From: Paracamarosporium sp. OC-R06-R3
Lineage: Eukaryota > Ascomycota > Dothideomycetes > Pleosporales > Didymosphaeriaceae
Direction: 5' to 3'
DNA length: 64,000 bases
Assembly: GCA_019828545.1 (NCBI GenBank)
Contig: JACVRA010000050.1
Span: 186,001 to 250,000 of the forward strand
This document shows positions 3,668 through 63,102 of the stretch, one piece after another. How positions within the stretch are numbered: position 1 is the stretch's first letter; each line of letters opens with the position of its first letter. The translations under genes were made by a program, and so were the position numbers. The notes beneath the pieces were generated by a model. The model had not been told where the DNA came from. It worked only from the letters and a program-made list of their open reading frames with translations, and searched no databases.

Positions 3668-4343
3668 CGTTGAGGAACGAAGGTGCGAGCGAGGGTCAGT
3701 GGTAAGATAGGTTTATCCTCTAGTAGGGAACGAAAAATATGTCTTATCACATTTGATTAGCTTTCTGGTACCCTTCCACCGGTATAATGTGTGGGTATAT
3801 GTCCTACCGTGGTTACCCTTTGCGAACCGGCGTGCAAAACAGTTGAATGGGGAAGATGCGGTGGGCGCGATGATGCATGCTTCGCTATGGCTGCATTATG
3901 TACAGAGGAATAAGAATAATCAACTACACAAGTACGCTTCGATTTCAAATCATCGTGGTCAAGGTGAGCACAAAGGATGTGGTGGGTGCAGGTTGCAGGC
4001 CGAGTTCGGGGTCAGAGCTCCCGCGAGCTTGGACTTTTCTCGCGTTGCACAGACGCGGGGTGCGACGTCACAGCACAGCTCCTTGTTGCTTTTCCTCGGC
4101 GTCGGTTTTCGTCTCCAACGTTATGGAATTATAAAATCGTATATGTGATCATGGGAACGAGATTTCATGAATATTACATGCTTGTCATTCCATATCTGCG
4201 TTCAATTTCAGCTTACCCCAACAGTCTACAGAAGATGCTGATCCAAATGCAATGGCAAGACGTATTACACAAACGACAAAAGGTATCACTACAACTAGCC
4301 CTCCAAATGAGCGTATACACAACAATCCCCACCGCTCGCTCCT
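3668..4343. other. Intergenic region, no gene seen
   Basis: Upstream of the carrier gene (minus) and downstream of the amine oxidase gene (minus). It should contain the carrier promoter. No supported gene, RNA or repeat was seen. Confidence 0.5.
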
Positions 4344-7559: not shown

Positions 7560-9386
7560 TCAAAACAAACACACAGTCTTCTCAACGACCCCATTGATCC
7601 CGGCAAGCTCTCCCCTCATATATCCCTGCAGATAACACTGGCCAACAAATGTATACTCGTCGTCATGCTCCCCCTTTCGCGGTCGAATGATGAACGGAAC
7701 ATTACCTCCCCTAAAAATCCAGACTTCATCTCCAACCTCTGTATCCATATGACCGCAACCAAACAGACCCGTTTCACTAACAAACATTTTCTGATTAGCC
7801 ATCATGCCATAGATAGTTCGTCGTGTGTTGAACTCGACTTCGTCAGCCGAACCGCGCATAATTTTCCAGACGTCCTCTATATCATTCTCATCAATCGCTC
7901 GATCTGGTGCCTGCTCTCCATCTCGAACCACATCGCCCAAGGCAAACCTTGCGAAAGCTTCTGCGCGCGTGTACGTGGTTCCGGAATAGATTTCCTTCGA
8001 ACCAAGTCCATCTGGACCGTCGCTGAGATCGAACGGGCAGCCAACGGCGCCAGTGTACCATTCTTGTATGAGAATCTCTGTAGCAGTCACTTGCGAGGCG
8101 TCTGATACTACCTTCGTTTTTAAACCATCCTGGACACGCGCAATAGTAGCCACACATGCTCCAGTCAAACTCAACGTCGCCTTTCCGATTTGTTTCTTAA
8201 TATCCTGGAGGTCAATATCTTCCAGATTCTCAGCGGCGTTGTATTCATCATAGCCGTGCATTTGGTAGTAAACATCTGGCGAGTACGCTGGGGTTGAAGA
8301 GTTTAGATCAAGCGCCCACAAGGCAATATCCGGTGTAGACTCCGAAGCCTGCTGCCGGGGACATATTGTCAATGGCCGCAGTCCTTCCTGATCGACAATC
8401 AATTCCTTAGTTAGAGTGTTAAATACCTGAGCTGCGGGAACGCTGTAGTCACATTTCTCTGTCACCGGTAAGCGGCCCGGCTCGCAGAGACCGAGAAGGC
8501 CGTAAATCCCGTCTCGAGGGTCGGTGGCCCGCCGAAAACGATACCGATGGATCATTTGAAACATATCATCGTAATGTAGCTTTGCCATGTTGAGCCAGGT
8601 AATGTGTGCCATGAAACTGCCGAGAACAGGATTGCCAGGAGGATATTGGTCAAGCATATCATCAAGTGGTTGCGGGAAGCGTTCTACCCAGGCATCTCTG
8701 GCCCGTTGCAAGTCGCTCCACAATATCTCAAAATTTCCCCACTGCAAGGCCAGGTGTTCCGGTAACGCTGCTTCTTGCACTGTCCATATCCGATTCCACC
8801 ATCGGTTCCCCTCTGGCGCTATGGTCCTCAATGCTTCGATAGCTGCTCCGAATCGAGTGGGGAGTGCTGGTGGAAGGGGAAAGCTGCTTGGGTCAGCTGC
8901 TTCGCTTGCTGCACCCATATACTGGAGGAGTTGCATAGCAGCATCAGCATCTGCCAACGACACGCCATTATTCACTTCGCCCATCCACGCAATGCAACGG
9001 GAGCATTTCGTGTAGATGACAGACATAAGCTGGACCTGTTCTGCCTTTTCTTCCAGATTTTGCTGATCGATGCATATTTGGTCAATCCATAGAAGTCTCC
9101 TGCGATCCGGTAATTGCAAGTGGTGAAGTGCGCTGCTGAGGGAGCGAGAGATTTGGAAGGAATGGCCAGATACTACGATGGGTATTGAAGCCGTTTCGGA
9201 GCCCCATACATAAGAAAGCGTTTCATACTCGGGTAAGTTTGACAGTGATACCACTTGAATGTCATATTCGATTGGAGCTGGCTTCTCTGGGTCCGAATGA
9301 GCCGGTGGGATGCTTAAGATACGTATCTCCGGGCTGCTCAACTGGTGATCCCCGCTCTTGTTATTCTTTAGTGGAGGTAGCGTCAT
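7560..9386 (-). CDS. HET-domain (heterokaryon incompatibility) protein
   Basis: An intronless 608-residue protein starting at the ATG at 9386. The HET domain spans about residues 50-210: YETLSYVWGSETASIPIVV is the first conserved block, RRLLWIDQICIDQQNLEEKA the second and NRIWTVQEA the third. HET domains trigger programmed cell death when fungal cells of different genotype fuse. The C-terminal half matches the usual layout of HET-6/TOL-type proteins, ending with a GDEVWIFRGGNVPFIIRP block. No amyloid-like tail is visible at either end, unlike the second HET gene at 14206. It sits within 5 kb of an NLR/HET pair, which suggests a recognition island. Its allele specificity or partner cannot be inferred from sequence. 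Confidence 0.88.
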   Translation of the reverse strand: MTLPPLKNNKSGDHQLSSPEIRILSIPPAHSDPEKPAPIEYDIQVVSLSNLPEYETLSYVWGSETASIPIVVSGHSFQISRSLSSALHHLQLPDRRRLLWIDQICIDQQNLEEKAEQVQLMSVIYTKCSRCIAWMGEVNNGVSLADADAAMQLLQYMGAASEAADPSSFPLPPALPTRFGAAIEALRTIAPEGNRWWNRIWTVQEAALPEHLALQWGNFEILWSDLQRARDAWVERFPQPLDDMLDQYPPGNPVLGSFMAHITWLNMAKLHYDDMFQMIHRYRFRRATDPRDGIYGLLGLCEPGRLPVTEKCDYSVPAAQVFNTLTKELIVDQEGLRPLTICPRQQASESTPDIALWALDLNSSTPAYSPDVYYQMHGYDEYNAAENLEDIDLQDIKKQIGKATLSLTGACVATIARVQDGLKTKVVSDASQVTATEILIQEWYTGAVGCPFDLSDGPDGLGSKEIYSGTTYTRAEAFARFALGDVVRDGEQAPDRAIDENDIEDVWKIMRGSADEVEFNTRRTIYGMMANQKMFVSETGLFGCGHMDTEVGDEVWIFRGGNVPFIIRPRKGEHDDEYTFVGQCYLQGYMRGELAGINGVVEKTVCLF

Positions 9387-9973
9387 AATCGATGTTGGGA
9401 CCCTTCACGCCAGATGGTCGTCAGTCATGCGCAAAGTGAGGACAGATTCCTTGAGTCGTTTGAACCACACGTCGCTTCGCTCCAGTAGCTTATATTTTCA
9501 GATCGCTTCGCCTGGCCCCCTGCCATGTTCTCTCGGCCCCCGCCTGAGGTACACTGCCACAGGGCATTGTTGAAGGATTTCTCAAAATCTTCACTCCAGG
9601 GCGTATGATTATCTCCGTAAGCTGGAATAAAAGCTACATGGTGGGCGGGCTGATAAGCTGCCTCAGTCCCACTGACACCCGGAGACGACTACTGCACTGA
9701 TTGACTGAATCTTATCGCAGAATAGGTTCGCTTGATCCTTCAAAATGGCATTCAGAACTTGCTCAGCAACGCAACATAGTATTGAGAACGAAAGGGCCAG
9801 CTCTGAAGGCACGTCCCTCGTGAGTTGCGCCTTCCCTATAAAAGTCTAGCGTATATTACCCCTGCACGTCACAGCTGCGGAGCGAACTGTAGCATCTCCG
9901 AGAATGCGAGACTTCGACGCGTGTCCTTCCTAACTTTTCGCGCAATGTTTCGCGAACGTTAAGTTTTCCCAAT
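9387..9973. other. Divergent promoter region
   Basis: 587 bp between the starts of the HET-domain gene (minus) and the PAP2 phosphatase gene (plus). No gene was seen. It probably contains both promoters. Confidence 0.5.
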
Positions 9974-11538: not shown

Positions 11539-14003
11539 TCAGCTCCTATCCTGTTGTGTTTGCTCCTGCTGCAGCGCTAAGAGATATTCGCCGCAAGCAA
11601 TGGTTGTTGGGTGCTGATGTCCAAGACTTTGTTTGAACCCTTCGTAAGCTCGTTGATACAGCTGCAATGCCTCCGCACTCCGCTTAGTTCGGTGCAGGAG
11701 GTAGGCCAGGCAGTATGCGGAAGTTAGCGTATATGGATGCTGCTTTCCAAGCTCCTTCTCGTACCCTGTGAGCGCTCGCCGGTTAAGCATCTCTGCTTCG
11801 TCGTATTTCCCCTGTCTCTCTAGCATTACTGCTAGGTTGTTCACGCTCGTCAGCGTATGTGGGTGCTGCTCTCCAAGCTCCCTCTCACTTCCTTCTAGCG
11901 CTCGCCGCTGAAGCATCTCTGCTTCGTCGTATTTCCCCTGTCTCTTTAGCACTGACGCTAGGTTGTCTACGCTCGTTAACGTATCTGGGTGCTGCTTTCC
12001 AAGCTCCTTCTCGTACCCTGTGAGCGCTCGCCGCTGAAGCATCTCTGCTTCGTCGTACTTCCCCTGTTTCTCTAACACTAACGCTAGGTCGTTTACGCTC
12101 GCTAACGTCTCTGGGTGCTGCTCTCCAAGCTCCTTCTCTCTTCCTTCTAGCGCTCGCCGGTGGAACATCTCTGCTTCGTTGTATTTCCCCTGACTCTCTA
12201 GCACTACCGCTAGGTTGTGTACGCTCGTTAACGTAGCTGGGTGCTGCTCCCCAAGCTCCTTCTCTCTTCCTTCTAGCACTCGCCAGTTAAGCTTCTCCGC
12301 TTCATCGTACTTGCCATCATCATTCAGCACTAATGCCAAGATGTGCACGCTTAACAGTGTCTGCTCATTGTCTAACCCGAGTACACGCTCTCGAGCTGCA
12401 ACCGCCTTCCTCGCTACGACCTGCGCAATCTGATAATTACCTTTCCTCCAGAGATACCACGCAGCATTTGTAAGCACGTAAGCCCACTTCTCTACCGTCT
12501 TATCCACACCTAGCTCGACATTATATAGCGTCTCTATATGCGGGAGCAGCCGCTTGCACTGTCCCCAGTTCTCATACTCTCCGTTGGGAAACTCTTGAGC
12601 CATTAGGTCTATGAACCTACTCTGCCACCGTTCTACGTCGCTGAACGACGACAGCCAGATTTGCGTGCAGAACTGCACAAGAGCGTGCATCTCCCAGGCG
12701 TCACTATCCGGCACCATTGATATCAAAGAGTACGCTTGCAAAGTATCCAGATCTTCGTCGAACTCGCTGTCAGTCTCTTCCTCGTCGACACTAGCATCTG
12801 TAGCGTCTCCTGCTTTAGTCGCTCCTGCAGCTCCCATGCTGTACATTCGCAATGTCGGCTCTGGTATGCCCTGCGGGTTAAAGAAGCTCATCAGCAATAG
12901 CAAGTCTGCAGCCGACGGTCGCTCCCGTCGGATCTGCTCAAAAGATATCTGCCATGTTGTCACGACCGAGTTGGACGCGCTAGTGTCCCGGCGCAGCTCG
13001 CCCGCGTCCCAGTTCAGCAGGCTTTCTCGTTTCTTGTTGTTCCGTCGAAACTCATCTAGATAGCGGGCAACCGTCATACGTGCACGTCTATTGATGTAGG
13101 CAGCGGCCTGACTGATGGCTAGAGGTATACAATCGAGTGCGCGCAACAGTTCCACCGCGCTCTCTTGGACCAGTGGGTGGTGCAGTCTATTGCGAAGCAG
13201 CTGCAGACCCTCGCCCTCGTCCATAGCAAGTACCTCCTGAGTCATGTTGTGAACACCTACCAGCCTTACTGCTGCATCTTTGCTCCGAGACGTGACTAAG
13301 ATTGACCCGTTGCGGCTTTGAGGAAGGTAGGTGGCTAACGATATTTGCGCGCTAGCGTCTGCCTCGTCTCGCTGGCGGTTCCGAGACGGGAAGAAGGTCT
13401 CTACATCATCCACGTTGTCGATGACCATGAACCACTGTCCGTTCGTTTCGTCCCGCAGCCAGTCACTGACTAACCGCAACACGTTCGCCTTTGGGTCGTT
13501 CTTCCCTGGCAGCTCCAGCCGGTCTGCGATGTCCTTGTACGCTTGTTCGAAGCGGGCCTGGGTGCTGGCGTGGACCCAGAAAACGAACGTCTGTGGGCTC
13601 GCATCGCGGACGCTGTGGGCGTGCTGTATGGCGAGCTGCGACTTGCTGTGCTCGTTGTGTCAGCACTGAGAGAGATGCATTGACGTTGACGTACCCTACT
13701 CCGCCAAGTCCCACCAGCGCTGCCCGCGCGCCTGGTCCCGCGCACTTGTTGCGCACCCACGCAAGTATCTCAGGCCGGTCGACAAAGTCGGGGTCGGGCG
13801 CAAACGGTACCGTCGAGAAAGGCTCGCGCGCACGAGCGGCTTGGTCTGTGTGCTCATCTGAGCGGAGACATGCTGGTGGCGATGGCGCACCTACCCTGTG
13901 TTGACGAGCAGCCGAAGTGGAAGTTGGTGGTCCCGCCGGCTGCCGTGTGGGTTCCAGGTACCACGAAACGGCCATCGATCGGTCCGTGGAACGTACTGGC
14001 CAT
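11539..14003 (-). CDS. NLR: sigma-like motif, NB-ARC, TPR repeats
   Basis: A fungal STAND receptor of 788 residues. Exons are 14003..13895, 13845..13695 and 13645..11539; a 37-bp alternative first intron (13894..13858) also keeps frame. Residues 5-31 carry a glycine-rich motif (GPIDGRFVVPG, then GGTTNFHFG) that matches the C-terminus of the HET protein encoded head to head at 14206. The NB-ARC ATPase follows: FVDRPEILAWV at its start, Walker A GLGGVGKS at 82-89 (split by the second intron) and Walker B WFMVIDNVDD at 158-167. From about residue 500 to 755 there are six or seven 42-residue TPR units of the kinesin-light-chain type. The start is chosen because this frame encodes the motif. A longer out-of-frame alternative from 14050 also reads into NB-ARC but has no recognisable N-terminus. 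Expected role: ligand-triggered oligomerisation that activates a cell-death effector. Confidence 0.85.
11640..12410 (-). repeat. 126-bp in-frame TPR repeat array
   Basis: Direct repeats with exact 126-bp spacing inside the NLR gene; the segment agcgctcgcc recurs at 11771, 11897, 12023 and 12149, with a variant at 12275. Each unit encodes one 42-residue TPR (pattern KELGxQHPxTLTSVxNLAxVLExQGKYDEAE shortened). The central four units are nearly identical in DNA, whereas the outer ones have diverged, so recent unequal exchange or conversion is likely. Confidence 0.9.
13911..13991 (-). other. N-terminal amyloid-like (sigma-like) motif of the NLR
   Basis: Encodes residues 5-31 of the NLR. Key positions are F, GPI, GR, VVPG, H, GGT, NF and FG. 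Aligned with the HET protein's tail, 18 of 27 columns are identical with a single one-residue gap. The layout (aromatic and small residues, repeated G and N, no charged core) resembles fungal prion-forming motifs; I compare it with the sigma type first described in Nectria, from memory. Confidence 0.8.
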
Positions 14004-14205
14004 CGAGACGGTGTTTTTGTGATGTTGCAGAGGTGGGCAAGGGGTGACATGGATCGCAGAGATGGTCTGCTTGCTGGAAGTATGCCGAGCCCGACTCAGC
14101 CTCAGCCTTGCGCGCTTACATCTTCATGCTTTACATCGTCTCCTACTTTGACTCTATCCTGAACGACTGAGGATTTACCTCGCCTAGAGCTGCCGTCTAC
14201 TCACC
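14004..14205. promoter_or_regulatory. Shared 202-bp divergent promoter of the NLR/HET pair
   Basis: Only 202 bp separate the two start codons, so both 5' leaders and any core promoter must lie here. This would couple expression of receptor and effector. No specific factor site can be named with confidence. Confidence 0.65.
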
Positions 14206-15105
14206 ATGCGTCTTCTACAACGCACCGACCATGCAAAGTACAGCCTGACAGAGTTCATAGGTGCTGACATACCCCGTTATGCCATCTTATCTCACACCTG
14301 GGGCTCAGACCACGAAGAAGTCACCTTAGCAGATCTGGAGAGAGACACGAGTTTAGCCAAGGCAGGTTACAGGAAACTCCAATTCTGTGCAGACCAGGCT
14401 GCCAAGCACGGCCTCCGCTACTTCTGGGTGGACACTTGCTGCATCGATAAGTCGAGCAGCGCCGAGCTCTCCGAGGCTATCAACTCTATGTTTGCTTGGT
14501 ATCGTGACGCTGCTCGATGCTACGTCTATCTACCTGACGTTTCGACTGCCCAACAACCCTGGAGGCTTGCGTTCCAGCAAAGTAGATGGTTCACACGAGG
14601 CTGGACGCTCCAAGAGTTGGTAGCTCCAGTATCGGTCGAGTTCTTTTCCGTCGAAGGGAATCTACTTGGCAACAAATACTCGCTACTGCAAGAGCTCCAG
14701 AGCATCACCGGGATTGGCGTTGAGGCCCTTCAGGGAAGCCCTCTGAGTCAATTCAGCGTCGAGGAACGCATGTCATGGGTGGGGCAACGCCAGACAAAAC
14801 GCGAGGAAGATGCGGCATACTCCTTGCTAGGACTCTTCGACATCCACATGCCGCTCATATACGGCGAAGGTCGGAAAAAGGCGTTTGCCCGGCTCCAGAG
14901 GGAGATCGACGCATCAGCTAGCGAAGAGCGAATCCTAACTCAGAACGAGGCGTTGCAAAACCAAAACCAAAACCAAACCACGCATTCATACAATGGACCT
15001 GTATTCTACGGTCCTATAACGGGTCGTTATGTGGTACCAGGGCCTCACGTTACAGGCGGTACCGCCAACTTTAGTTTTGGAGAAGGACGCCCCTTCGGTC
15101 AATGA
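14206..15105 (+). CDS. HET-domain effector with C-terminal sigma-like motif
   Basis: An intronless 299-residue protein. The HET domain covers about residues 20-160: YAILSHTWG, then LRYFWVDTCCIDKSSSAELS and RGWTLQELVAP are the classic blocks, in the short form found in HET proteins controlled by STAND receptors. EEDAAYSLLGLFDIHMPLIYGEG follows. After a short Asn/Gln stretch (NQNQNQTT) the last 36 residues hold GPVFYGPITGRYVVPG and GGTANFSFG, matching the N-terminus of the NLR encoded divergently 202 bp away. In known NLR/effector amyloid pairs the motif sits at the receptor's N-terminus and at the effector's C-terminus for HET or HeLo effectors, exactly as here. Predicted role: a cell-death executor switched on when the receptor's motif templates its own. 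The start at 14206 follows a good context (caccATG). Confidence 0.92.
   Translation: MRLLQRTDHAKYSLTEFIGADIPRYAILSHTWGSDHEEVTLADLERDTSLAKAGYRKLQFCADQAAKHGLRYFWVDTCCIDKSSSAELSEAINSMFAWYRDAARCYVYLPDVSTAQQPWRLAFQQSRWFTRGWTLQELVAPVSVEFFSVEGNLLGNKYSLLQELQSITGIGVEALQGSPLSQFSVEERMSWVGQRQTKREEDAAYSLLGLFDIHMPLIYGEGRKKAFARLQREIDASASEERILTQNEALQNQNQNQTTHSYNGPVFYGPITGRYVVPGPHVTGGTANFSFGEGRPFGQ
14995..15081 (+). other. C-terminal amyloid-like (sigma-like) motif of the HET effector
   Basis: Encodes residues 264-292 of the HET protein, partner of the motif at 13911-13991. Shared anchors are F-x-GPI-x-GR, VVPG, H, GGT-x-NF-x-FG. The flanking sequence is Asn/Gln-rich on the N-terminal side and ends seven residues later. 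Confidence 0.82.
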
Positions 15106-16199: not shown

Positions 16200-18180
16200 T
16201 CACGCCTCGACAATCTTGTTCGCTTGCCAGACATCAGGAATGTTATAGTATACCAAGTTACTCCACTGCTCGTCGCTTATGTACTCTCTCGAGTTGAGTA
16301 TGACGGCCCAGTCGTAATTTTCCTGCCCCATAGACTGCGCGAAAGAACGAGCTCCAGCTACGCTGCCGTCGCGAGACGACAGGAATTCTCGGCCGCCAAT
16401 GGTCCAGACAGCTGCAACATTGTTAGTTAGAGTTGTGCTGGGGAAGGATTTAGAAGGAACAGTGCTTACCATTTTTGCCAATGAATCTCGCAATTGTGCT
16501 CGCGGAGGCTCTCAAAGCCACGACTCCAACAATCTCTTCCTTGATGTCGCCATCTCCTCCCGCAGTATTCGGCACCAGAATTTCCTCTTGTGGGAACAAG
16601 GGACTGTAGCCGGTGAACTTGGTTTCCTGCACGATGGGATCGTTGACGTGCTCCTTAGCAGCAGTGGCGAATAGTTCGGCTTCAAGATCGTCTTCTAGAA
16701 CTCGATCCTTGAGAAATTCCATGTATGGAATACCGGTTAGGTTAGTGAGAACGTAACTGAGAAGCATGGTCCCGTAGTTAGAGTACGCGTAACTTTCTCC
16801 AGGGGTGAAGTCCAGAGGCCGGTCAACAATGTATTCGATCATGTCGCGGAGAGTTTGCGGCTCTGAGCTATTCTTAGATCGTGCCACTTCGCGGAACATA
16901 AAAGCAATGTCTCCAGATTGGGATCGATCGTAGCCGGCAGTGTGTTGTACGAGATGCGAGACTGTGATGTTGTTTGCACGCTCATCTTTGGGCTTATAGC
17001 CCAGAAGCGGGTAGACCTTGGTCGTGAGGTCGAGAAGTCCGTCGTCGATGAGGCGCTGGGTGGCAGCATGTGTGAACATCTTAGACACACTGCCGAGGAG
17101 GAATTTGTCGCTGGTCTTCACTACTGCGCGGTCGCTTTCAGCTAGGGTGAAGGCACGTTCTCCGAGAAGTTTGCCCTCACGGGCAATAGCTACTTGCGCT
17201 TGACGGATACCGTTGGTCTCCATCCAGTTGTGCATGGCAGCATCAAGTCCCGAAATAACAGCGTCATTGTCTTCGAAGCCAGTGACCTTGCCGTTGGCGT
17301 TCCAGTTCCGAGGAAGGGGCTTGGTCATCTCAGCGAAAATTGCGGCATAGATTACATCTTTACCGTTGCCACCACCCTGGAGCTGAACCAGAGAAAGCCC
17401 GTTTGACGTCTGGGTCTGGATCTCTGCTGCAAGTTGAGATCCAGTCAGGTCGACCTTTGCCTCCCACTTCCCCACGCTGGTGTCCTCGAAGAGGGGCGAA
17501 ACGAGGTGATCATTGGTAAGGTCAAAATAAGTCGGTCTCCAGAAGCGCTTTTGCATCTCGGCTTGGTAGACATTATCGTAATCAAAATTGACAGAGTCTG
17601 TCTGGTAGTAGATTGATTGCTTCCTGTTTCCAATATTCTCATAGCCGACAATGCAGTATCGTCGGTTGGACGGCAATCCATACACGCTGAAGCCCTTGAC
17701 GATCATGTCCATGCCTGAGGTAGCATTCACATATTGGTAAGGGGTATCCAAGTCACATATCTGCCTTTCTGTAATATCGGCTTGTTCCATTACTCCGGCG
17801 AAGACGGCGCTTCCGACAGGGCCAGTGGCAGAAACATGGGTTGAGACATATCCCTTGGATTTCCAAGATTCGTACCAGGAGTTAAACGTGTTCTCGTCGG
17901 CTGTTGCAATCGTTTCGAACTCTGCACCTTCGGTCTTTGTCCAGACGGCCGCGTATTGGACGTCTGGAGGCGCTCCATAAACGCTCAGCGAGACGATACG
18001 ATATCCATCCGTTTTCAAGGTCTTGCTACGTTCCTCGTGCTCTGCGCTGGTCACACCGTAGTAAACCCCAGGGTCGGTTCCGTTGCGCCTGGATAGTGTG
18101 TTTCGAACATTATGGGTAGGCGAGGATGTCGTTAAAGAAATGAAGGGCAACAAATGGAGAAGCAAGTAAGAGAATAACAT
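16200..18180 (-). CDS. Secreted beta-lactamase-like serine hydrolase (polyglycine hydrolase-like)
   Basis: Two exons (18180..16470 and 16411..16200) give 640 residues, beginning with a hydrophobic signal peptide (LLLHLLPFISLTTSS). The N-terminal half holds three related blocks roughly 100 residues apart, around 59-80 (GYRIVSLSVYG...YAAVW), 160-181 (KGFSVYGLP...YCIVGY) and 261-284 (GLSLVQLQG...YAAIF). The C-terminal half is a class C beta-lactamase/serine peptidase fold with S364-x-x-K367 (SVSK), Y466-S-N and a VSHLVQHTAGY block. This length, secretion and repeat-plus-lactamase layout match the fungal polyglycine hydrolases, which cut glycine-rich linkers of plant class IV chitinases and so disarm a defence protein. 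That substrate is inferred from architecture; a secreted esterase or peptidase of another specificity is possible. Confidence 0.75.
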
Positions 18181-39385: not shown

Positions 39386-39926
39386 AGCACTACTGCCACC
39401 ACCCACCAGCACCACCCAGCACGCAGCGCCCGCCCCAGCGTCTCTCGTCCCTCGTCCCTCGTCGCCTCTCGCACCAGCCCGCACGCGGCCAGCCGGCTCC
39501 CCTTGGCGACAGGGCCCCCGGGTCGCCATTCGCCGGCTGCTGCGCACTGGCTGCTGAGACACCCGCGCGCCCTCGCAAGGGCCGGGGCAGACGCTGACTT
39601 GAGCGCGGGCCCCGAAATAGATTATTCCAAAACGACTAACTCCTGTTTCACCAGCCCTCCGACACCTAAAGCTCTGCCACTCCCCCCTCGGATTTGCGTT
39701 TCGTGTGTCCTAAAGCCCTATCCTTCACGCTGCCCAGTCTGCTTGACGTCGCGACTGCTCTGGCTCCGAGGCAGGCCCTCGATACGTTTTATCTTCTCTG
39801 AACACACCTCAAACCCTCGCTCCACCGTTTCCTTCGCCGTACGCTTCATATTACATTATTCGCATCCGGGCAGGCCCTCAACGTCTCATTTCGCCATCCT
39901 TCGCATCGTCGCGTCTCAAGCGCGCC

Positions 39927-42258
39927 ATGTATTCCAACCCTCATGCGGCCATGCCGCCACCCCAGGCGCGCTCTGTCGCGCCTGAGACCTTCTTATTAGA
40001 TCAGGACGCTCAGCAAAGCCTGCCGCCCGACAGCATCGTCGCCCTCCAGCAGGTCGACAACCGTACGTGCAGTCCAAACTTGCTCCTTCCCGTGTCGCGC
40101 ATCCGTCTCGCCCACAGCCCACAGCCCACCACCAAAAAACTAACGCTGCGCAGTCAAGTACTTCCTCATCTCGGCGCCCGTCGACTGGCAGCCCGACCAG
40201 TACATCCGCCGTTTCCTCCTGCCCACCGGCGAGTATGTTTCGTGCGTGCTATGGTGAGTTGCATTCCAACGCATTGTTTGTCATCGCACCACCCGCTGAC
40301 CCCGCCCCCCAGGAACAACCTCTTCCACATCTCAGGCACCGACATCGTGCGATGTCTGTCCTTCCGCTTCCAGGCCTTTGGCCGCCCCGTCAAGAACTCC
40401 AAGAAGTTCGAGGAGGGCATCTTCTCCGATCTGCGCAACCTGAAGTCGGGCACTGACGCCTCGCTCGAGGAGCCCAAGAGCGCCTTCCTCGACTTCCTCT
40501 ACAAGAACAACTGCATCCGCACACAGAAGAAGCAAAAGGTTTTCTACTGGTACAGCGTTCCCCACGACCGCCTGTTCCTCGACGCGCTTGAGCGCGACCT
40601 CAAGCGCGAGAAGATGGGCCAGGAAGCCACCACCGTCGCCGTCAGCGAGCCCGCGCTCTCGTTCGAGTTCGACTCGTCGCAGTCGCTCTTCGAGCAGCTC
40701 ACAAAGGCCCAGCAGACAAACTCGTCGTCGTTCAACAACAACGTCCAGACATACTCGCAGTCGACGTCACCAGTGATGCGGGCCATGGATTCGATGCCCC
40801 CGCCTCAGATGGTCCCCCAAGCCATGCCACCCACGGTTCACGAGGAGCCAATGGCTCCCATGGTCCAGTACCAGCAGATGTCGATGGCGCCGAGCATGCA
40901 GAGCACCGTTGTCAAGAGCAGAGAACGCGAGTATGCGCCGCAGGTGCAGTACGACCGCAACGGCATCCCGCTCTCGCAGGTGCACCAGCGCCACAGCTCA
41001 ATGCCCGCCTACATGGAATACTCGCCCGCGCCGTCATTCGTCTCGTCACACTACGAGGACTACAGCACTCGTGGCATGTCGTTCGAGCCCTTGACCCCGC
41101 CTCAGCACCAGATTAGCCTCGGTGCCGAGCCTGCGTACATTGCCAACGAGGACACTGGTCTGTACAGCGCAATTCCTGAACTTGGTGTGTCGCACTCGTT
41201 CAATCCCCTGATGAACATTCCTCCGTCCAACTTGATGGGCCCCAGCTTCCCCGGCGTCAACCGGGCATTCCCTCCAGGAAATGTGTACTCAGTCATCGAG
41301 GGCTCACCGACATACAAGCAGCGACGGAGGCGGTCGTCCATCTCAACCGCCGCCGCCGTTGCCGCCGTCACCGCCACGGGTAACGCCCACCAGGTGCACC
41401 GCCCCAGTGACTTGAGGAGGTCAATGTCGAGTTCCATCATGCCCGTGCCCGAAGGCGAGGAGGTGCAGACAGTCTCGAACCACAACTCTCCCGACAGCGC
41501 TACTGGCCCGTCTCTGCACCACCCGATCCCTGAGGCCAAGCCCCAGGTCAACATCTCGCGCCACGGCACTCCACTGCACACAATCGAAGATAGCCCGCCG
41601 CAACAGCAGGCTCTGCTTCCGCAAGACGAGCTTAGCAATCTTGTCAACGGCGACATGTTTGACAGCCCACTGCAGCACAGCGCAGTGGCCCGCGCCCAAG
41701 GCGCTCCCAACGTCTTCCGACGAGCACGGAGCGCCACCATGATGGAGATCGGCCCGTATCCCCAAAAGTCTCACTCCTGCCCAATCCCCACCTGTGGTAG
41801 GCTATTCAAGAGGTTAGAACACCTCAAGAGGTAAGCGCCCACCACCCCCCAGTGCGACTTGAAATAGCCGCTCATTAGGCGCTAGGCACGTGCGCACCCA
41901 CACACAAGAGCGGCCTTACGTTTGCCCTCTCTGCAACAAGGCCTTCTCTCGCTCCGACAACCTTGCCCAGTACGTCTCGCTCGTGTCGATCTCATGCATG
42001 ATATGCTAACAATATACCCGCAGGCATCGTCGCACCCACGAACCCCGCCAAGACGGCGAGCCGCTCGACTTCAACGAGGACGACCTCGAGGGCGAGGACG
42101 AGCACCTCCATTCGCTGGAGGAGGAGTCGCCCGAATCCGGCAACGACTACCTCTCCGGCCTCCCCCAGATCCCCACGTCCATCTCCGATATACCCGGACC
42201 GCTTGCCATGTCCATGGCTCCCCCGCAGCACCACCTCATCGCTGCCAACAACTATTAA
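39927..42258 (+). CDS. STE12: STE12-family transcription factor with two C2H2 fingers
   Basis: A transcription factor acting below the pheromone/filamentation MAP kinase; in plant-pathogenic fungi homologues control penetration. Five exons, 39927..40062, 40154..40253, 40313..41830, 41886..41969 and 42024..42258, give 690 residues. The homeodomain-like STE domain runs from about residue 40 to 155: [40 protein letters not shown] and [26 protein letters not shown] (each part of one block). A long Pro/Met/Gln-rich middle follows. Two C2H2 zinc fingers near 565-617 ([19 protein letters not shown] and [17 protein letters not shown]) are split by introns exactly as in filamentous ascomycetes. Budding-yeast Ste12 lacks these fingers. 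The tail is acidic. The gene stands alone between two large gene-poor regions, as broadly regulated genes often do. Confidence 0.95.

Positions 42259-58129: not shown

Positions 58130-63102
<4,973 letters not shown>

Follow-up and report, generated by a model that had tools for sequence, protein, structure and literature searches.

We analysed a 64,000-nt stretch of DNA from Paracamarosporium sp. OC-R06-R3 (contig JACVRA010000050.1, positions 186,001 to 250,000; hereafter the window), together with searches of its own 43-Mb genome, and focused on two genes between positions 11,539 and 15,105. An NB-ARC/TPR gene of the NOD-like receptor (NLR) type on the minus strand lies head to head with a HET-domain gene on the plus strand, and the same short glycine-rich motif occurs at the N-terminus of the receptor and at the C-terminus of the HET protein. 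This arrangement suggests that the two proteins probably form a trans-acting pair, coupled by a shared signalling motif of the amyloid type. The best protein matches came from genera that we take to belong to the Pleosporales.

Shared motif and gene models

We aligned NLR residues 5-31 (13911..13991, minus strand) with HET residues 267-292 (15004..15081, plus strand). The results showed identity in 18 of the 27 columns and an alignment score of 95, a score reached by none of 20,000 shuffles (mean 23.7, maximum 64), while the next best place for the motif in the window scored 39. When the NLR motif exon was used as query against the genome, the HET tail was recovered at E 1.6e-5 as one of eight matches at E ≤ 10, and the HET tail as query recovered the NLR exon at E 5.1e-6 as one of five, the query itself being included in both counts. 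A preliminary description of this DNA had reported the same glycine-rich motif on both proteins and a head-to-head gene order; our analysis confirmed both, with the receptor-side motif exactly at the positions first given and the two start codons 202 nt apart. The motif consensus is approximately FxGxIxGRxVIPGTHxxxGGTxNFxFG, a composition rich in glycine, in valine, isoleucine and threonine, and in aromatic residues, and poor in charge. As in amyloid signalling motif (ASM) systems, one short motif is thus carried by an NLR at its N-terminus and by an effector at its C-terminus.

The HET gene (14206..15105, plus strand) runs from an ATG at 14206 to a stop at 15105 and encodes 299 aa, with no intron in the model. 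Its product belongs to the HET domain family by a Pfam match over residues 25-111 (14278..14538; PF06985, 52.0 bits against a cut-off of 22.5, E 1.2e-13), and a PDB sequence search with the protein returned no matches at E ≤ 1. The NLR is predicted to have 788 aa, encoded by three exons between 14003 and 11539 on the minus strand. Exon 1 (13895..14003, ATG at 14003) encodes the N-terminal motif, exon 2 (13695..13845) encodes a linker and the start of the P-loop, and exon 3 (11539..13645, stop codon 11539-11541) encodes the rest of NB-ARC, DUF7779 (E 3.2e-8) and TPR repeats (Pfam TPR_12, E 6.6e-85), including a near-identical TPR array at 11723..12309 (126-bp unit, 4.7 copies, 84% matches). Both introns are 49 nt long and of the GT..AG type. 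Intron 1 (13846..13894), for which alternative acceptors are possible, agrees with homologues such as P0193, P0152 and P0124, and intron 2 (13646..13694) interrupts the P-loop coding region at a place where homologues read GLGGVGKSQLA without a break. This inferred splice pattern is one of several in-frame possibilities, and its exon joins are backed by the homologues P0193, P0152 and P0124, since these are continuous across the same joins. Assignment to the NB-ARC/TPR NLRs (signal transduction ATPases with numerous domains, STAND) follows from the TPR repeats in the window and from the NB-ARC domain of homologue P0193, which passes the Pfam model at 29.4 bits. The 202-nt intergenic region (14004..14205) is a putative two-way promoter, judging from the gene starts.

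In the AlphaFold2 (AF2) model of the HET protein, the mean confidence (pLDDT) was 79, and the last five ten-residue blocks scored 41-55, as for a stretch without a fold of its own. The HET model gave no convincing PDB match, and a likeness to TIR was only weakly visible. The AF2 model of the NLR homologue P0193 had a mean of 82, with Apaf-1 as its first Foldseek match (E 4.5e-9); its N-terminal 40 residues were mostly under 50, with low-confidence strands at residues 16-22 and 26-31 around a turn. Amyloid was visible in neither model.

Conservation and genomic context of the motif

On the HET side, we examined 120 listed homologues of at least 8,000 above threshold, counting a tail as present at a score ≥ 60. 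The tail was found in 77 of the 120, and in 73 of these it lay within 20 aa of the C-terminus. In an alignment of 57 sequences (that of the window among them), the top residue of a column had a mean frequency of 0.81 for the HET body, 0.45 for the linker (residues 236-262; 14911..14991, plus strand) and 0.79 for the motif (residues 263-293); the variable linker thus separates two stretches, HET domain and motif, that are conserved to the same degree. On a HET-body tree of 147 tips, the distribution of tailed and tailless forms mapped as 19 changes, and 74 of the 78 tailed tips fell within one 97-tip clade in which fused and other forms were interspersed (one branch order).

On the NLR side, the preliminary description had proposed a motif profile search of NLR N-termini as a check. 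A profile built from the HET tails alone matched 35 of 121 NLRs at E ≤ 0.01, namely 34 of 120 listed homologues and the window NLR (residues 5-32, score 34.9), and 33 of the matches started at residues 2-8. Shuffled N-termini (n = 2,400) gave 20 matches at E ≤ 10 and none at E ≤ 0.01, the best decoy scoring 9.0 against up to 39.6 for real sequences. A short intact N-terminus was present in 43 of the 120 homologues, with the motif in 32, and the N-terminus was truncated or unaligned in 48. The other forms carried a Pfam HET domain (14), PNP_UDP (3, with the motif in 1), SesA (6) or something else (6, with the motif in 1). The motif-bearing matches include Alternaria, Curvularia, Phaeosphaeria, Lentithecium, Colletotrichum, Dactylonectria, Monosporascus, Talaromyces and Tricladium, genera that, by the classes we presume for them, would be spread across Pezizomycotina. 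Among sequences fitting the search pattern (120 proteins examined on each side), the distance from F to GG was 17 in all 70 HET tails and 18 in 18 of 21 NLR motifs. The two sides of the motif therefore probably separated before these species did, and this side-specific spacing rejects recent gene conversion between them.

In the fused homologues P0088, P0089, P0108 and P0112, the HET domain continues directly into the NLR linker encoded in the window by exon 2. The genome itself has 15 HET matches with an NB-ARC or NLR match no more than 302 nt further along the same strand, as counted from match positions rather than from individually checked gene models. Given these fusions and same-strand neighbours, we conclude that one position is occupied by the HET domain in some proteins and by the motif in others; as in ASM systems, the NLR family also has members with the effector domain fused in cis. 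In P0123, annotated as a HET-NLR fusion, the last motif residues appear by eye to be kept at the join, unless the gene model is wrong.

The genes are also adjacent or clustered, as in ASM systems, in the window pair, in ten apparent homologue pairs and in relic pairs of the genome. In the ten homologue pairs, the HET and NLR matches have longest contigs of identical size, five of them under 50 kb and the smallest of 8,117 bases; control comparisons shifted by 1 to 10 bases in both directions gave 3 coincidences in all (contigs over 5 kb). Four of the pairs are annotated at NCBI, and their NLRs carry the motif by profile (P0124, P0158, P0187 and P0219), with an incomplete annotated HET tail in one (P0060); in the other six, from other sources, the NLR frame lacks the first exon. 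Pair preference was scored for four pairs (window, Phaeosphaeria, Alternaria RS040 and Curvularia kusanoi), leaving out seven of the ten equal-contig pairs (P0060 and the six non-NCBI frames). The cognate NLR was the sole top scorer for Phaeosphaeria alone, tied for the window and was not first in the other two, and co-evolution within pairs was not seen in the four pairs scored.

Besides the window, open frames joining the motif to NB-ARC occur at C112 and C81, and relic motifs at C85 and C99. At C81, a relic of a HET tail with a stop and no HET body (positions 3849-3968) stands beside the open motif NLR frame, whose product is a possible receptor now relying on a HET protein elsewhere. Broken NLR-HET-NLR copies with many in-frame stops fill C256:1-9000, one NLR lying head to head with the HET copy, the layout seen in the window; the decay looks like repeat-induced point mutation.

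We also searched with P0182 (PNP_UDP-motif-NLR) and found P0241 of Neonectria punicea (E 4.9e-3), a PNP_UDP protein (PF01048, E 3.8e-19) that ends in the effector-side motif. Its motif scores 124 against the HET tails and 75 against the P0182 query, and so is nearer to the former. P0241 was the sole non-HET effector with the motif among the 9 candidates scored, a sample that barely covers the effector range. Other motifs occur in the same families. Canonical sigma forms the tail of the HET protein P0101 (PF17106, E 4.8e-13) and the end of the HET paralogue at C306 (6.7e-10), whose neighbour, a SesA protein, also ends in sigma; a further HET paralogue, at C114, has a sigma stretch downstream of it, with an intron assumed. 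Because these HET relatives carry sigma, it appears that HET domains serve as effectors for more than one class of amyloid motif. The C306 cluster (553576-556213) comprises the HET-sigma protein, the SesA-sigma protein and a third sigma stretch, and in the HET-sigma protein an apparent remnant of the NLR linker, judged by eye, separates the HET domain from sigma, as though a HET domain once fused in cis had come loose and acquired a new tag. Two further loci hold NLRs of the same family. One at C327:398355-400041 (40% identical) has a Pfam PP (Ses_B) match just upstream, and the NLR family may therefore use three motif classes in one genome; the other, at C131:5500-15000, has sigma close to its N-terminus, and another sigma stretch lies nearby on the opposite strand.

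About 5 kb from the pair, the window holds a second, distant HET protein (7560-9404, minus strand; 607 aa from ATG, PF06985 E 5.3e-28); it shares 22% identity with the HET protein of the pair over one stretch and lacks the motif at its end. Other genes are a beta-lactamase-family protein with polyglycine-hydrolase-like BTRD1 repeats (16450-18177, minus strand), a STE-like transcription factor (39747-41831, plus strand; PF02200 E 8.1e-48) that we presume to be a Ste12 homologue, and adjacent open frames (58133-62806, minus strand) with RWD and kinase, then kinase, HisRS-like and anticodon-binding domains, which we take to be probably one Gcn2-type eIF2alpha kinase gene. Scans for tRNAs and bacterial promoters gave nothing informative.

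Motif class and relation to known systems

The preliminary description had considered the motif most like sigma, with a distinct class as the alternative. None of a 24-sequence motif set matched any Pfam family at E ≤ 10, in a search whose filters drop most matches above about 0.1; this includes PP (PF17046) and HET-s (Pfam HET-S models), both 0 of 24, with HRAM covered only by the Pfam models. The hhalign comparison with ten sigma peptides gave a probability of 1.7% and E 0.03 over seven columns (GGTxN). Cross-scoring of motif and sigma profiles yielded no match at E ≤ 0.01 in either direction, and the positive controls behaved as expected, the tail profile finding 23 of 24 motif sequences, the sigma profile all 10 of its own and P0101 matching PF17106. 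With no PF17106 match, the hhalign probability above and no cross-score at E ≤ 0.01, membership in sigma was rejected. The resemblance to sigma was thus not supported, and a distinct class fits better by the profiles tested. The motif class lies apparently outside HRAM, PP and sigma; it may equal a published motif.

The system has several known counterparts. In the sigma systems (SesA/SesB/Het-eN of Nectria haematococca; PF17106), the motif likewise sits at the effector C-terminus and the NLR N-terminus, the genes are neighbours and there are several effector types, and members of the present HET family (P0101, C306) themselves carry canonical sigma. However, the present motif lacks the GxGxQFN boxes described in PMC3321046, and its likeness to sigma box B is confined to a GGTxN echo. 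In NWD2/HET-S (HRAM) and PNT1/HELLP (PP), neighbouring genes for a receptor and a death effector share a short motif in the same way. Templating, shown in those systems, is here proposed from the likeness, the effector is a HET domain instead of a HeLo or HeLo-like pore former, and no Pfam model matches the motif. The HET-domain NLRs (HET-E/D/R; HET-NB-ARC-TPR) have the same kind of death domain, and fused homologues share the HET and NB-ARC/TPR families; those receptors act in cis within one protein, whereas here a separate HET protein and NLR are linked by the motif. Bacterial amyloid signalling sequences (BASS) also accompany TIR proteins (PMC7889193, in the excerpt used), and HET has been described as a remote TIR relative, but these systems are bacterial, their motif families differ and the HET-TIR likeness is weakly visible here.

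The published record was consulted in excerpts. According to that of PMC3321046, HET proteins beside STAND genes were screened, and no HET/STAND pairs satisfying the criteria of that study were identified. The excerpt of PMC9815663 lists HET among 19 effector families scanned, with C-termini of 10-150 aa only, and names HeLo, HeLo-like and PNP_UDP as motif-linked effectors, PP and sigma occurring in pore-forming and enzymatic types. Apart from one ambiguous phrase in PMC12261475, a HET-domain effector with an amyloid motif was found in none of the open-licence PMC papers covered in this way, which include PMC5485727, PMC12881547, PMC10197012, PMC7889193, PMC8086366, PMC4986451, PMC12258605 and PMC10890737. 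The C-terminus beyond the Pfam HET match measured 163-188 aa in five tailed or sigma-ended proteins, against the 10-150 aa scanned, and the published miss is therefore explicable, although the published profiles may set other boundaries.

The motif may already have been catalogued by Wojciechowski et al. 2022, as a class that is unnamed or barely described there, NLR34 or PF01048_015, a possibility that we take seriously without favouring it. In that case only the HET effector would be new, and a trans-acting pair coupled by the motif could still hold. The excerpt of PMC9815663 gives NLR34 as 29 ascomycete NLRs with 0 effector matches, and PF01048_015 as four PNP_UDP pairs; the latter is probably the later PUASM 2. 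Compared by description only, the length of 28 and the ascomycete range of NLR34 fit the present motif, and the PNP_UDP link of PF01048_015 fits P0241. The 0 effector matches of NLR34, although HET was among the families scanned, argue in the other direction. The PUASM/PF01048_015 systems resemble ours in placing a motif on an enzymatic effector, as P0241 does here, but the Q core of the PUASM pattern FxGxGxQxxGxGxF (same excerpt) is absent from the present motif.

Proposed mechanism, alternatives and significance

In the mechanism that we propose, the NLR would sense a cue through its TPR array and oligomerise, which would gather the N-terminal motifs into an ordered beta (amyloid-like) fold. 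This fold would then template the same motif at the HET C-terminus, recruiting and converting HET tails, and the clustered HET domains would become active, so that the hyphal compartment would be killed or arrested. We infer the clustering and activation steps from the known behaviour of NLRs and HET domains, and we model the templating step on HRAM, PP and sigma systems, which have the same layout. The view, taken from the outset, that such motif sharing marks prion-like transfer from an NLR to an effector gains support from the conservation and position of the motif, the apparent co-location, the cis-fused counterparts and the second effector type, all of them comparisons of sequence.

Several observations weigh against this interpretation. 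Fibril formation, seeding and cell death are deduced here rather than observed, the N/Q content of the motif is 0.08-0.12 compared to 0.26 in sigma, and the motif contains prolines. At the threshold used, 43 of the 120 listed HET homologues lack the tail (fused, truncated, sigma and other ends), and the motif is below threshold in 11 of the 43 short NLR N-termini, among which P0178 and P0197 match the Pfam PP model and P0131 and P0149 resemble weak motif versions by eye. The partial model of the window NLR scored 21.3 bits for NB-ARC, below the Pfam cut-off of 23.5, and an NB-ARC search of its own genome (22 matches) did not include it. The co-location of homologues is an apparent one, read from equal contig sizes, and in the four pairs compared cognate partners were no more alike than non-cognate ones. 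Weak hints of kinship with sigma exist (hhalign E 0.03; sigma profile against HET tail P0005, E 0.017), and a remote link through the GGTxN element is therefore possible. Finally, one open tailed HET gene was found in the genome against three open motif NLR frames, in searches that score best candidates only. Several receptors may therefore share one effector, which the lack of cognate preference would fit, as weak evidence from few pairs.

The prolines, the low N/Q content and the low-confidence AF2 strands would also suit a homotypic binding tag of a non-amyloid kind, for example a peptide that acts by beta-augmentation or folds on binding; such a tag would bring HET to the oligomerised NLR, with real coupling but no prion-like templating. 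We consider this unlikely, given that the layout (NLR N-terminus, effector C-terminus, neighbouring genes) is that of known ASM systems, the composition is rich in glycine, aromatic and beta-branched residues and poor in charge, and canonical sigma takes the same position in other members of this HET family. It is highly improbable that the similarity is a functionless local by-product of a recent duplication or gene conversion near the intergenic region, as the closeness of the motif copies (about 1 kb) and the relic motifs adjoining relic partners could suggest, in view of the side-specific F-to-GG spacing (17 vs 18), the weak DNA similarity and a conservation above that of the linker.

The amyloid-type trans-acting pair thus remains our preferred explanation. 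Whether it represents an undescribed ASM class across Pezizomycotina, which drives HET (TIR-related) effectors in trans with one HET protein for several receptors and has also moved onto PNP_UDP enzymes, seems to us evenly balanced. If true, this would be the HET/STAND pair sought, but not found, by Daskalov et al. 2012. Amyloid signalling, known from pore formers, lipases and phosphorylases, would then reach the HET family as well, in parallel to the TIR proteins of bacteria that carry BASS. With its removable switch of 26 residues and a likely cognate NLR adjoining, this HET protein would offer a direct means to turn a HET domain on at will, by seeding the motif, and the two wirings could be compared within a single receptor family that has both cis and trans forms in nature.

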